A stretch of DNA of 64,000 bases from Candidatus Woesearchaeota archaeon (GTDB lineage: Archaea > Nanobdellota > Nanobdellia > Woesearchaeales > JAFGLG01), in contig JAFGLG010000006.1 of the NCBI GenBank assembly GCA_016928155.1, forward strand, positions 1-64,000, read 5' to 3'. This document shows, in pieces, positions 18,045-51,547 of the stretch. Position 1 is the first letter of the stretch; each line of letters starts with the position of its first letter. Made by a program: the position numbers and the translations under genes. The notes under the pieces are model-generated. The model searched no databases. It saw nothing but the letters and a program-made list of their open reading frames with translations, and was not told where the DNA came from.

Positions 18045-18178
18045 GGGGGTATAGTGTAACCTGGCTATCATAGTAGGCTCCAGTAACTGGAGCACTGAGC
18101 TTCGGCGATGATGTACTGATGGTGTGTGCTTCGGCATGAAGACACCTGCGGATCTGGGTTCAAATCCCAGTACCCCCA
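18045..18178 (+). tRNA. tRNA-Trp (CCA) with a 60-base intron
   Basis: Acceptor GGGGGTA (18045) pairs with TACCCCC (18171), with A as discriminator and no encoded CCA. The T arm CTGGG/CCCAG and anticodon stem GTAGG/CCTGC (one G-U) are well formed. The anticodon CCA is at 18080-18082. An intron of about 60 bases (18084-18143) follows position 37, the canonical site. Inside it are CTGA (18094), a C-box-like GATGATG (18107) and CTGA (18116), consistent with the box C/D guide RNA known in tRNA-Trp introns of many archaea. A TATA-like TTTATATATAA lies near 18010. Confidence 0.9.
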
Positions 18179-36411: not shown

Positions 36412-37065
36412 TCAGAAGTCTCCCAATTTCTTCTGCTTCTTCTTGTCAGCGCTTCGCCTGAATGTCTCCCAGCTCTTCCTGAATATCTCAGGATATTTCT
36501 TGAAGTTCTTCTCGACAAACTTCGCAGTCAATGGATCGCTTGGGTACCCGCTGCCGAAATCAGCACCGATCTTCGCTTTTATCTTCTCTATCTCCCTGTC
36601 TCTTGTCACTTTTGCAAGTATTGATCCTGCTGCGACAGAGGGATAATTCATGTCTGCTTTGTGTTCTGCAATTATCTCCACATCTTTGACCTTCTTGAGG
36701 ACATATGATTTGTAACTAGAGATGTTATTGCTTGGGCAGTCAAGTATCGCCTTGTCTGGTTTTAAGAAATTGATGATCTCGGCTGATTTGTCTGCTTCCA
36801 GCCAGTTCAGGTTCATCTCTTTTGGACCGAGAACTGCCTCATCTATCTCGCTTGGTTCAATGATGAGGATCCGGTACTCTTTCACTGCAGAGATGACTTT
36901 ATCAAAAAGGTCCTCTCGCTGTTTCGGAGTCAGGAGCTTCGAATCCTTCACTCCCATCTCTTTCAGTTTCTGCTCATCATTCTCATTTATGAGAACTCCG
37001 GCTATTACAAGCGGACCTATCACTGAACCACGGCCTGCTTCATCAATACCGCAGATTGTTGTCAT
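36412..37065 (-). CDS. rnhB: Ribonuclease HII
   Basis: RNase HII (217 residues) cuts RNA in RNA-DNA hybrids and starts ribonucleotide excision. 'CGIDEAGRGSVIGPLVIAGV' carries the D-E-x-G-R-G motif with two catalytic acids. 'AILDCPSN' and 'AEHKADMNYPSVAAGSILAKVTRD' give the remaining ones, and the length is normal for archaea. Its ATG overlaps the stop of the LAGLIDADG gene (ATGA), so translation of the two is coupled. Confidence 0.95.
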   Translation of the reverse strand: MTTICGIDEAGRGSVIGPLVIAGVLINENDEQKLKEMGVKDSKLLTPKQREDLFDKVISAVKEYRILIIEPSEIDEAVLGPKEMNLNWLEADKSAEIINFLKPDKAILDCPSNNISSYKSYVLKKVKDVEIIAEHKADMNYPSVAAGSILAKVTRDREIEKIKAKIGADFGSGYPSDPLTAKFVEKNFKKYPEIFRKSWETFRRSADKKKQKKLGDF

Positions 37066-37706
37066 ATTAATGTTTTTTCAACCTTTTCCCTTTTATAAAT
37101 TTTATGAGCTTTCATTGAGTGCTTTGGATTTGAAAATCCGATAAAATCACACCATTTAATCAACTCTTTTCGACCATTTATCTGAATTCTGACCTTGCCT
37201 TTTCCAATTTGGTATGATTTAAATCTGAAATTGTATAGATTTAACAAATATTCAAATTGTTTCAACATAGGGGAAGGGGATATCTTCATCTCTAAACGTG
37301 GATAAAGTGTTCCATTGTTATTCGTGAGTACAACACTTCCATCTGTATCAAAATATCCTCTTAACACATATTTACCAAATTCTTTATTTAGTAAGTATGG
37401 TGGGATTATCCCACGATTCCATTTTGGAGAAGATTTCAATCCTAAATTAAGCAAATGCATAATAATTTCTTTCTTGAAGATATACAAATCAGCTGTATTC
37501 TCATCTTTTCTTTTCTTGAGAATTGATTTAGTGCCCAAAACATTGTATAAAAGATAGGAAACATAAGAGATATACTCTCTATCATCACTATGAAATGAAA
37601 TCTTAAGTCGGTAATAAGTAGAATATTTATTTGAGAGATAGATATTTATTGAGCCATCTCCTAAGATTATCCCGACCAATTCAGCTAATTCTTTGGTTAT
37701 TTTCAT
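37062..37706 (-). CDS. Free-standing LAGLIDADG homing endonuclease
   Basis: The 214-residue protein has two LAGLIDADG-type motifs, 'LAELVGIILGDGSI' near the N-terminus and 'VLRGYFDTDGSV' near residue 130, as in monomeric two-motif homing endonucleases. Acidic residues in both (D, D) are kept. The Lys-rich start after SD GGGGGTGAT fixes ATG 37706; the longer frame to 37802 runs through hairpins. It is not inside an obvious intein or rRNA intron. It lies downstream of the interrupted initiator tRNA on the same strand and is translationally coupled to rnhB. Its DNA target is unknown. Confidence 0.88.
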   Translation of the reverse strand: MKITKELAELVGIILGDGSINIYLSNKYSTYYRLKISFHSDDREYISYVSYLLYNVLGTKSILKKRKDENTADLYIFKKEIIMHLLNLGLKSSPKWNRGIIPPYLLNKEFGKYVLRGYFDTDGSVVLTNNNGTLYPRLEMKISPSPMLKQFEYLLNLYNFRFKSYQIGKGKVRIQINGRKELIKWCDFIGFSNPKHSMKAHKIYKREKVEKTLI

Positions 37707-37935: not shown

Positions 37936-38114
37936 TAGCGGGGGGTGGATTTGAATTCGGCAGCATCTGATTTCTCAGAATGCTTCCACCGACCTTTGGG
38001 TCTCCAAGGCAACTAGTGCCATATGAGCCTTCCGCGGCCAATTAGGGGCCTCAACGGGCACTCCTGGTTGGACATTTAAGGGTATAGAGCCCTTAAATTC
38101 TGCCCTACCCCGCT
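37936..38114 (-). tRNA. Initiator tRNA-Met (CAT) gene interrupted by five insertions
   Basis: On the minus strand, segments of an archaeal initiator tRNA occur in order. They are acceptor AGCGGGG/CCCCGCT with the A1-T72 pair, D stem GGGC/GCCC with loop AG..CCAGGAGT, anticodon segment AAGG-CTCATA, CCTTG, AGGTC, and T arm GGTGG / TTCAAAT / CCACC, then discriminator A. They are separated by insertions at about 38068-38099 (D loop, 32 bases), 38032-38053 (start of anticodon stem, 22), 38011-38021 (after position 37, 11), 37996-38004 (variable loop, 9) and 37956-37985 (between T stem and T loop, 30). Removing these leaves exactly 75 bases with all stems paired. Several insertions are self-complementary. 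TTTTTT follows. Boundaries may shift by a base or two. A decayed pseudogene is possible but the exons look intact. Confidence 0.85.
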
Positions 38115-38205: not shown

Positions 38206-38289
38206 GCCGAGGTCGCATAATCTGGTAGTGCGCTGGCCTGCTAAGTCAGTTTCCTTCGGGATATGTGGGTTCAAATCCCACCCTCGGCT
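38206..38289 (+). tRNA. tRNA-Ser (GCT)
   Basis: Acceptor GCCGAGG pairs with CCTCGGC (38282-38288). The anticodon stem CTGGC/GTCAG holds loop CTGCTAA with anticodon GCT. A long variable arm (TTCC-TTCG-GGAT-like) marks class II, and the T arm is GTGGG-TTCAAAT-CCCAC. The discriminator would be T (38289), not the G usual for serine tRNA in archaea. A TATA-like CTTTTAAAAA lies about 30 bases upstream. T-rich sequence follows. Confidence 0.92.
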
Positions 38290-49253: not shown

Positions 49254-49673
49254 CTATATATCCGCTATCACGAAGCATTTCCATCCTGAATCTGTTTTCT
49301 CGACTTTGAACATATGGAGCGTTATCGCTTTCACATCGACTTTCGGGTTGTGTTTCTGGAAATCTATCTTTTCACCGGTTAGTTTTCCTTTCAGGGTATA
49401 GCCGTCTTTTATTTTTATGTCGAATTTCGAGAATACCAGCTGCTCTGCATCCTTGTAGTATACGAGCTCGCTGAGGAAATCGAAGAGCAGCTTTTCTATG
49501 TCTTCATTTTCAAGCTTTATCTCTCTGGTCTCGGACCCTTGGATCCTGCTTACATCCACTTGCACTTCTTCGACTGCCTGTGCTGCGCTTGAGAACATCT
49601 GCTCCAGTGTCTTTCCGTATGCCTCAAAAGCCACATCCGCTCTTGTTATCCCTTCGATATATTTGTACGCCAT
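49254..49673 (-). CDS. Archease
   Basis: Archease (139 residues) activates RtcB and widens its nucleotide use. 'EGITRADVAFEAYGKTLEQMFSSAAQAVEEVQVD', 'LLFDFLSELVYYKDAEQLVFSKFDI', 'GEKIDFQKHNPKVDVKAITLHMFKV' and the C-terminal 'FVIADI' match the family, including the metal-binding Asp residues. It is downstream of rtcB on the same strand, 22 bases away. Confidence 0.94.
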   Translation of the reverse strand: MAYKYIEGITRADVAFEAYGKTLEQMFSSAAQAVEEVQVDVSRIQGSETREIKLENEDIEKLLFDFLSELVYYKDAEQLVFSKFDIKIKDGYTLKGKLTGEKIDFQKHNPKVDVKAITLHMFKVEKTDSGWKCFVIADI

Positions 49674-49695: not shown

Positions 49696-51144
49696 TTATC
49701 CTTTGATGTTGCCTAATGGCTTGAATGATGCTATCTTCTTAGAAATCCCTGCATTGTGGACTGAATTTATTACTTCTGACACATCCTTGTATGCCAGTCC
49801 TGCCTCCTCTGCCAGTCCTGGCAGCGACACAGCCTTGACATATATCCCGTGTGCTTCCATATCTCTCTTGAGCTCGTCGCCTCTCACTTTGCTCTTCGCT
49901 TCTGCCCTGCTCATCACCCTGCCTGAGCCATGGCATGTGCTGCCGAATGTCATCTCGGATTCGTCTGTCCCGACAAGCAGATAGCTCATTGTTTCCATGC
50001 TCCCTCCGATTATGACTGGCTGTCCTGTCTCTTGGTGCAATGGCGATAGCTCCTTGCGCCCTGGTCCGAAGCTCCTTGTGGCCCCTTTCCTGTGGACGAG
50101 CAATTTTTTTCCTGAATGCTCCTCGACTTTTGCGATATTGTGCGCGACATCATACACCAGTTCCATGCCGAGCTCCTCAGCACTGCTTCCGAATATCTTT
50201 GAGAATCCTTCCCTGATCCCGTGCATCAGCACTTGCCTGTTCGCAAATGCCATGTTGGCTGAAGCGCACATCGCCTTGAAATAGTCTTGCCCTTCCTTGG
50301 AATTGAATGGCGCGCTTGCCAGCTCCTTGTCGATTACTTTTATGCCGTACTTGGGCATTATGTCGAGGCATTTTCTCAGGTAGTCTGTTCCGACCTGATG
50401 ACCGAGACCTCGTGAGCCGCAGTGCACCATTATGACTATCTGGTCCTCGAAGATGCCGAATTTCTTGGCGATCTTGTCTTCGAATATTGCACCTTTTGGG
50501 ACATGCTGTATCTCGAGGTAATGGTTCCCTGATCCGAGTGTGCCGACTTGGTCTATGCCTCTGGATTTCGCTTTTTCGCTGACCTTCGAGTCATCTGCTG
50601 ACTCTATGCAACCACGGTCTTCCATCATCTCCAGGTCCTTTTCCCATCCCTGGCCCTGCTGGATAACCCATTTTGCGCCTTCATTGAGCAGGTTGTTCAG
50701 GTCATTCTTGCTCAGTCTTGATGCTCCCTTTGCTCCGACTCCTGGCCTTGCGCTTCCATAGAGCCTGTCTATTATCTCCTTGATTTTTGGTTTGACATCA
50801 TTGAATGTGAGGTTTGTCCTTATCAGCCTGACTCCGCAGTTGATATCGAATCCCACTCCGCCGGGGCTTATGATGCCTTCTTCCAGGTCAAATGCCGCGA
50901 CACCGCCTATCGGGAATCCGTATCCTGAATGGCCGTCGCTCATGCAGTATGCGTAGTCCTGGATTCCGGGAAGCGTTGCTACATTTGTCAGCTGGCCGAA
51001 TACATGCGCATCCATCTCATTGACGAGTTTTTGGCTTGCCACGATCCTTGCAGGGACTCTCATCCCTGGTTTGTATCCTTTTCCTATTTCCCATACAAAA
51101 TCATTTATCTTGCTTAATTCCGGTCTTTTTGGCTCTTCTCTCAT
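49696..51144 (-). CDS. rtcB: RNA-splicing ligase RtcB
   Basis: RtcB (482 residues) joins 2',3'-cyclic phosphate and 5'-OH RNA ends after tRNA intron removal. Signatures are 'GGVGFDINCGVRLIRT' (metal-binding Cys), 'GTLGSGNHYLEI', 'MVHCGSRGLGHQVG', 'DVAHNIAKVEEH', 'HRKGATRSFGPG' and 'GSTCHGSGRVMSRAEAK' with the guanylylated His. All metal ligands seem present. Given the interrupted tRNA genes at 18045 and 37936, this enzyme should be needed. It lies between two archease-family genes. Confidence 0.96.
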   Translation of the reverse strand: MREEPKRPELSKINDFVWEIGKGYKPGMRVPARIVASQKLVNEMDAHVFGQLTNVATLPGIQDYAYCMSDGHSGYGFPIGGVAAFDLEEGIISPGGVGFDINCGVRLIRTNLTFNDVKPKIKEIIDRLYGSARPGVGAKGASRLSKNDLNNLLNEGAKWVIQQGQGWEKDLEMMEDRGCIESADDSKVSEKAKSRGIDQVGTLGSGNHYLEIQHVPKGAIFEDKIAKKFGIFEDQIVIMVHCGSRGLGHQVGTDYLRKCLDIMPKYGIKVIDKELASAPFNSKEGQDYFKAMCASANMAFANRQVLMHGIREGFSKIFGSSAEELGMELVYDVAHNIAKVEEHSGKKLLVHRKGATRSFGPGRKELSPLHQETGQPVIIGGSMETMSYLLVGTDESEMTFGSTCHGSGRVMSRAEAKSKVRGDELKRDMEAHGIYVKAVSLPGLAEEAGLAYKDVSEVINSVHNAGISKKIASFKPLGNIKG

Positions 51145-51145
51145 T

Positions 51146-51547
51146 TTAGTCGTAATGAAATTTCATCTCATATGTCCCTTTGTCCTGCGTCAGCTCGAAT
51201 CCATAATAGGTGACTATGCCGAGCTCTTTCACCATCTCTGTCTGGTCGAGCGCTTGCGTCGTGAATTTTGCCAGTATCCTTGATTCTGATAGCTTGTCTA
51301 TGCTGATGTCAAGTATCTTTTTCTTTTTTGATAGGTCTATTGTCTTCTGCAGTATGGATATCGCCAGGTCCTCGAAGTCTTCTGCCTCTGCTTCTATCTC
51401 ATCTTCTGTTGTCTTTTTGCCTGGATCAGGGGCATGGCTTGCATATATGACTCTTATTATCTCTTTGATTGCATTTGTGAGTAAGTTCTCTCTTGTCTTT
51501 GCCCTCACTGTTATCCTTTTTTCGAGTTGTTCGTTCAGGAATGTCAT
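51146..51547 (-). CDS. Divergent archease-like protein
   Basis: The 133-residue protein aligns by eye with the archease pattern: a first helix 'ENLLTNAIKEIIRVIY', a charged 'EAEDFEDLAISILQKTIDLSKK' matching 'ENEDIEKLLFDFLSELVYYKD', paired strands 'ILDISIDKLSESRILAKF', and 'ELGIVTYYGFELTQDKGTYEMKFHYD' matching the K-A-I-T-x-H ... D ending. The early metal-binding Asp is not obvious. It ends two bases before rtcB begins, on the same strand. It may be a partner or regulator of RtcB; this is inference from fold and position. Confidence 0.7.
   Translation of the reverse strand: MTFLNEQLEKRITVRAKTRENLLTNAIKEIIRVIYASHAPDPGKKTTEDEIEAEAEDFEDLAISILQKTIDLSKKKKILDISIDKLSESRILAKFTTQALDQTEMVKELGIVTYYGFELTQDKGTYEMKFHYD

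Follow-up and report, generated by a model that had tools for sequence, protein, structure and literature searches.

The only initiator tRNA-Met (iMet) gene of a Candidatus Woesearchaeota archaeon is cut into five exons by four short introns, and a LAGLIDADG homing-endonuclease-like gene follows it on the same strand. Judged by its sequence, the gene is very probably functional, with all four introns removed by splicing. The account that we favour as a whole, a functional four-intron iMet gene served by a homing endonuclease encoded outside it, is probable. Note that "the window" refers to the whole stretch of DNA analysed, 64,000 nucleotides of contig JAFGLG010000006.1.

Layout and splice motifs of the initiator tRNA gene

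The iMet gene occupies window positions 38114-37936, on the minus strand. Here, 104 extra bases split an archaeal initiator tRNA whose parts are all present and in order, as an earlier note on this DNA had described. The diagnostic features named there, an A1-T72 pair, a CAT anticodon and a GGTGG/CCACC T stem, were all seen. With intron lengths in brackets, the minus strand reads AGCGGGGTAGGGCAG [32] CCAGGAGTGCCCGTTG [22] GGCTCATA [20] ACCCAAAGGTCGGTGG [30] TTCAAATCCACCCCCCGCTA. The introns, of 32, 22, 20 and 30 nt, are located at 15/16, 29/30, 37/38 and 53/54 respectively. Exon 1 (38100-38114, minus strand, as for all parts below) covers positions 1-15, including the 5' strands of the acceptor and D stems, and its 5' end is unique in the genome. 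Exon 2 (38052-38067) covers positions 16-29, exon 3 (38022-38029) positions 30-37 with the CAT anticodon, and exon 4 (37986-38001) positions 38-53. Exon 5 (37936-37955) covers positions 54-73, and its 3' end is again unique in the genome.

Removal of the introns restores a tRNA, as expected of bulge-helix-bulge introns. ARAGORN identifies the spliced 75-mer, containing ...CTCATAACCCAAAGGTC..., as tRNA-Met(cat), and it forms a full cloverleaf (-35.0 kcal/mol) in which all stem pairs are Watson-Crick. Of the 85 iMet genes parsed in an order-wide sample, 42 have this same 75-nt form without interruption. Because intronless relatives have this form, the exon boundaries are fixed. The earlier arithmetic, 104 bases removed to leave a 75-base tRNA with paired stems, is right. 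The unspliced gene was missed by ARAGORN and by the Rfam tRNA model at its gathering score.

The number of introns required correction. The earlier note counted five insertions and six exons, separating an 11-base from a 9-base stretch and suggesting that the latter might be a retained expansion. Since intronless relatives fix the mature sequence, these stretches together make one 20-nt intron at 37/38. Briefly, relatives read GGGCTCATAACCC, while the window, with the 29/30 intron removed, reads GGGCTCATA[TGGCACTAGTTGCCTTGGAG]ACCC. Under the single-intron reading, the score against a profile of the mature form, built from intronless relatives, is 128.6 bits, and the anticodon stem is TTGGG/CCCAA, with five of five pairs Watson-Crick. 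Keeping the 9 bases in the variable loop also leaves 75 bases, but scores at most 117.7 bits against the same profile, introduces a T-T mismatch into the anticodon stem and breaks the 37/38 splice helix retained in relatives. That reading is very unlikely, and we rejected it on the score and the mismatch. The 9 bases instead form the 3' portion of the 37/38 intron, where its splice pairing lies. Of the proposed insertion sites, those in the D loop, the anticodon stem, after position 37 and between T stem and T loop stand; only the variable loop site is lost, being part of the 37/38 intron.

In an archaeal bulge-helix-bulge motif, a stretch of four exon bases that stops two bases short of the 5' cut pairs with a four-base stretch of the intron that stops two bases short of the 3' cut, with an intron hairpin between the paired strands. 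The earlier note proposed that each junction be checked for this structure. All four cuts have the 4-bp exon-intron helix with 3-nt bulges in register, and all four inner hairpins start at the expected base. Intron 1 (38068-38099, D loop) has helix GGGC/GTCC, with four of four pairs, and an inner hairpin of 9 bp. Intron 2 (38030-38051, anticodon stem) has CCGT/GCGG, also 4/4, and a 4-bp hairpin. At intron 3 (38002-38021, the canonical site), the helix is CTCA/TTGG (3/4), the inner hairpin is GGCA/TGCC and the outer helix is the anticodon stem. Intron 4 (37956-37985, between T stem and T loop) has CGGT/GCCG (4/4) and an inner hairpin of 6 bp followed by a 1-nt bulge. The one mismatch, in the 37/38 helix, counts against our favoured account. 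By eye, an outer exon helix is clear only at 37/38, and the other three motifs are relaxed HBh' forms.

Shuffling each intron 200,000 times gave P = 5e-6, 3e-4, 5e-3 and 1e-5 for the splice pairing at 15/16, 29/30, 37/38 and 53/54. When distinct introns from relatives are compared, 80-100% of helix cells are paired at the correct register, and about 10-60% with the helix shifted by one or two bases. Where exons vary, intron bases covary. At 29/30, relatives have CCGT/GCGG, CCGA/TCGG and CCGG/CCGG, and at 53/54 they have CGGT/GCCG, CGCT/GGCG and CGTT/GACG. Shuffling of partners at these two sites reached the observed pairing in 0 of 2000 trials. Group I introns were ruled out: the introns are 20-32 nt, and within the window Rfam matches tRNAs only. 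A group I ribozyme core needs about 200 nt or more.

The gene is flanked by ATATTTATAAAG upstream and a TTTTTTCATTTTT run downstream, which look promoter-like and terminator-like by eye. A tRNA-Ser(GCT) gene (38206-38289, plus strand) is divergent from iMet and 91 nt away. Several relatives (L295, L296, L146 and L153) also have this gene close to iMet, and the pairing may be an old linkage.

Copy number and splicing machinery

The genome assembly is 1.48 Mb in 17 contigs and 99.7% complete. A second initiator tRNA gene, which the earlier note named as the observation that would make this one a decayed copy, was sought genome-wide with 5' and 3' patterns, allowing up to three mismatches. The 5' pattern had no other match with two mismatches or fewer; with three mismatches there were three, near chance level. 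The 3' pattern, at up to three mismatches, matched only at this gene. The window gene is the sole iMet gene of the genome. A pseudogene with accumulated insertions, as failure of two standard tRNA tools to find the gene could suggest, is most improbable; we rejected it on the intact, fully paired mature form, and the lack of another iMet, insertion sites common to relatives with conserved splice pairing, and promoter-like and terminator-like flanks also speak against it.

Genes for splicing are present. RtcB tRNA-splicing ligase is encoded at 49696-51144 (minus strand) and archease, the RtcB cofactor, at 49254-49673 (minus strand). A second, weaker archease-like gene lies at 51146-51547 (minus strand, E 7e-9); archease-family genes are thus found on both sides of RtcB. 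On another contig (L196:1264-1788, G000 contig C17) is one EndA gene, alpha-like and of 174 aa, whose closest PDB match is the alpha subunit from Nanoarchaeum equitans. No second EndA subunit was found in the genome with PF01974 at E <= 10. Similarly, 108 of 117 genomes in the order encode EndA, nearly all with exactly one match, and none of 21 EndA sequences has a long loop insertion of the CSL/ASL type. Hence, we found neither mark of a relaxed-specificity (alpha-beta)2 or epsilon2 enzyme, these being a second subunit or multi-unit chain and a CSL/ASL loop.

The order is full of relaxed-motif introns, and three of the four motifs of the iMet gene are relaxed, yet EndA is a single alpha-type protein. 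This conflicts with the rule, stated in reviews, by which efficient removal of relaxed introns is confined to (alpha-beta)2 and epsilon2 enzymes (PMC6379350). Therefore, either a beta subunit has escaped recognition or the alpha-type EndA has broad specificity. A very divergent beta subunit may still be encoded in this genome.

Other tRNA genes may be similarly affected. Just 20 tRNAs in the genome exceed the Rfam cut-off and half are over-long, so multi-intron tRNAs are probably common. A 134-nt tRNA gene at window positions 18045-18178 (plus strand) scores 43 bits to RF00005, was missed by ARAGORN and must hold about 60 nt of intron.

Introns of relatives and the LAGLIDADG family

The window's family contains no other genome, so comparisons were made across its order, Woesearchaeales. 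In the order sample, iMet has no intron in 42 genomes, one in 21, two in 13, three in five, four in three and five in one. Recurring sites are 15/16, 20a/21, 29/30, 37/38, 43-46, 53/54 and 59/60. Five introns in one iMet, claimed in error for the window, do exist among relatives. At least four species have such genes: L184/L067 (JAHJAV010000128.1), L186 (DUGG01000073.1), L147 (JAFGRH010000043.1) and L384, which belongs to another order. Note that two introns of L147 were joined by automatic parsing and separated by eye to give five. These cases were gathered from the order sample, a pattern scan for the 29/30 intron and later searches. The scan covered one genome for each of 84,980 species and selects intron-rich genes, so intron frequencies are taken from the order sample only. 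Many bacterial matches of the scan lacked the iMet 5' end and were discarded as chance. One entry titled "Candidatus Aminicenantes bacterium" (L149, JAFCCF010000011.1) bears a Woesearchaeal three-intron iMet, and its title is probably wrong.

The LAGLIDADG gene (37062-37706, minus strand) begins 229 nt downstream of iMet. The reading frame is open to 37802 and the likely ATG is at 37706. The protein matches Pfam LAGLIDADG_3, _1 and _2, and has two intact motif regions, ending GDG and DTDG, with the aspartate invariant in the alignment. A profile of the family matches I-DmoI in the PDB. The gene is not intron-encoded, since it lies downstream of the tRNA and the introns are only 20-32 nt.

Homologs are found 3' of iMet in many relatives. 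In the order sample, this is so for 8 of 43 intron-bearing and 0 of 42 intronless iMet genes (P = 0.003); if a distant LAGLIDADG type is included, the counts are 8/43 and 1/42 (P = 0.016). An order-wide profile search detected homologs in 62 of 117 genomes. Two of the strongest homologs, neither of them used to build the profile (G056 and G067), adjoin iMet genes missed by our first pattern, with three and two introns. As a prospective check, we searched new genomes of the phylum. Four unseen homologs had E < 1e-60, three of them from other orders of the class, and all four adjoin an intron-bearing iMet (2, 3, 3 and 5 introns).

Weaker homologs adjoin other tRNA genes. Such adjacency, defined as an Rfam tRNA match within 600-nt flanks, was seen at 25 of 40 further loci, of which one match is of the tmRNA clan and one just under the cut-off, compared with none of the 20 control regions taken 8 kb away (P = 8e-7). 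A lenient scan gave 26/40 endonuclease loci and 1/20 controls (P = 5e-6), adding at least one endonuclease locus and one control. About 21 of the 25 matches are 85 nt or longer, indicating mostly intron-bearing genes, though a few could be tRNAs with long variable arms. The counts rest on Rfam because ARAGORN, with introns allowed, gave unreliable isotypes at several loci, calling iMet Pro or His. Isotype labels come from agreeing calls or inspection by eye.

Some further loci were recorded. Extra or distant LAGLIDADG types, outside the two iMet clades described below, lie upstream, downstream or a few kb away at L133, L158, L147, L193, L055 and L260. At L388:853-1173 (plus strand), an archaeal RNase P RNA gene is directly upstream of a tRNA-Phe with an adjacent endonuclease of the family. 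One control region (L368:1437-1656, plus strand) has a 220-nt tRNA-Gly-like gene in which insertions total about 145 nt and may represent five introns or more.

In a protein tree, the iMet-adjacent endonucleases fall into two supported clades (1.0 and 0.994), each free of other isotypes. Among endonucleases not beside iMet, 14 of 34 have a nearest relative that adjoins the same isotype (3.3 expected, P = 4e-4). This isotype tracking could partly stem from vertical inheritance at one locus. The clades also differ in intron site. Clade a, which includes the window's protein, has the 29/30 intron in 4/4 genes, compared with 9/83 others (P = 3e-4). Clade b has the 53/54 intron in 4/6 genes, compared with 5/81 (P = 8e-4). 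Both associations remain after a tenfold correction for the ten combinations tested. Introns at 15/16 and 37/38 had no convincing tie to an endonuclease of their own, a point against the favoured account. We consider it likely, with good confidence, that the family is tied to its tRNA gene as target.

Origin of the introns and comparison with known systems

We propose the following. EndA would cut each of the four introns from the iMet precursor, and RtcB with archease would join the exons into a normal 75-nt tRNA. The LAGLIDADG enzyme would recognise the uninterrupted iMet gene at a single junction, which for the window's clade would be 29/30. If it cut an intron-free allele, repair from this locus would transfer the intron along with the neighbouring endonuclease gene. 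This would be ordinary intron homing, except that the intron is very short and the endonuclease gene lies outside it. By repetition at other junctions, multi-intron genes could then arise. From sequence comparison, we infer that the introns are spliced, that the enzyme cuts the empty site and that homing follows. On balance, we lean slightly towards the endonuclease driving, or having driven, intron gain. Our general proposal is that tRNA introns in Woesearchaeales and neighbouring orders are mobile by way of isotype-specific LAGLIDADG endonucleases encoded beside them, reaching five introns, and are removed by a broad-specificity, alpha4-like EndA from a single gene. We judge this evenly poised.

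The gene could be functional, with its four introns, and the LAGLIDADG gene a passenger, a selfish gene that uses conserved tRNA loci as safe insertion sites and is unrelated to the introns. Introns would then arrive by another route, such as transposition among tRNAs, which has been proposed for Thermoproteales (PMC4033280). Several endonuclease-adjacent tRNAs are intronless (L304, L305, L321, L325, L355, L357 and L388), and most intron-bearing iMet genes have no endonuclease beside them, as a passenger would allow. Such solitary iMet genes are expected if the endonuclease is lost after fixation and, equally, if it is unrelated to the introns. Against a passenger are the association with iMet intron presence, the match of clades to particular intron sites, and the introns in every out-of-sample iMet case. 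Hence, this explanation is possible but doubtful. It is far less probable that introns came with plasmids or viruses integrating at tRNA genes, as in the Caldiarchaeum model, leaving the endonuclease behind (PMC3293823). While tRNA genes are common attachment sites and the precedent is published, no integrase was recognised beside iMet, where the neighbours tested are RNase HII, a transglutaminase-fold gene and a GTPase, and the endonuclease is repeatedly found at the same tRNA in different families and orders.

A candidate mobility enzyme accompanies the gene. Since its family tracks both tRNA target and intron site, a homing origin for tRNA introns becomes testable by cleavage assay. The gene likewise calls into question the rule by which relaxed motifs are beyond single-subunit EndA enzymes, and it makes clear how standard tRNA finders come to overlook essential tRNAs in these genomes.

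In open-licence literature, we found no report of more than three introns in an archaeal tRNA, or of archaeal homing endonucleases adjacent to tRNA genes. The archaeal maximum is given as three per tRNA (PMC8450103, PMC4033280, PMC4390854, PMC6379350). The iMet gene, encoding an essential single-copy tRNA, exceeds this with four, and the earlier note was correct to call its intron number exceptional for an archaeal initiator tRNA. Thermoproteales such as Pyrobaculum resemble the present case in having several short bulge-helix-bulge introns, at canonical and non-canonical sites, within one tRNA (PMC4390854, PMC8450103). There, a tRNA has at most three; here, there are four, or five in relatives, in a single initiator tRNA of a DPANN lineage with a linked endonuclease gene. 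In Atabeyarchaeia and Freyarchaeia, of the Asgard archaea, introns occur in 92-95% of tRNA genes, and more than half have several (PMC11291895). They belong to another phylum, and the main text of that report gives neither a per-gene maximum nor an endonuclease link. The permuted initiator tRNA-Met of Thermofilum pendens is likewise a disrupted archaeal iMet rebuilt by splicing (PMC4090602), but exon order is normal here. A related protein fold is seen in the LAGLIDADG enzymes that archaeal rRNA introns encode, I-DmoI among them. These also involve bulge-helix-bulge introns; in 16S rRNA, one such enzyme co-converts a small neighbouring intron (PMC4496867). Those genes lie inside large rRNA introns, whereas this one lies beside a tRNA gene, outside tiny introns.

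Free-standing homing endonucleases of phages, in collaborative homing, are likewise encoded beside, not within, the element that they mobilise. They act among phage genes and self-splicing introns, whereas the introns here are archaeal tRNA introns of the protein-spliced kind.
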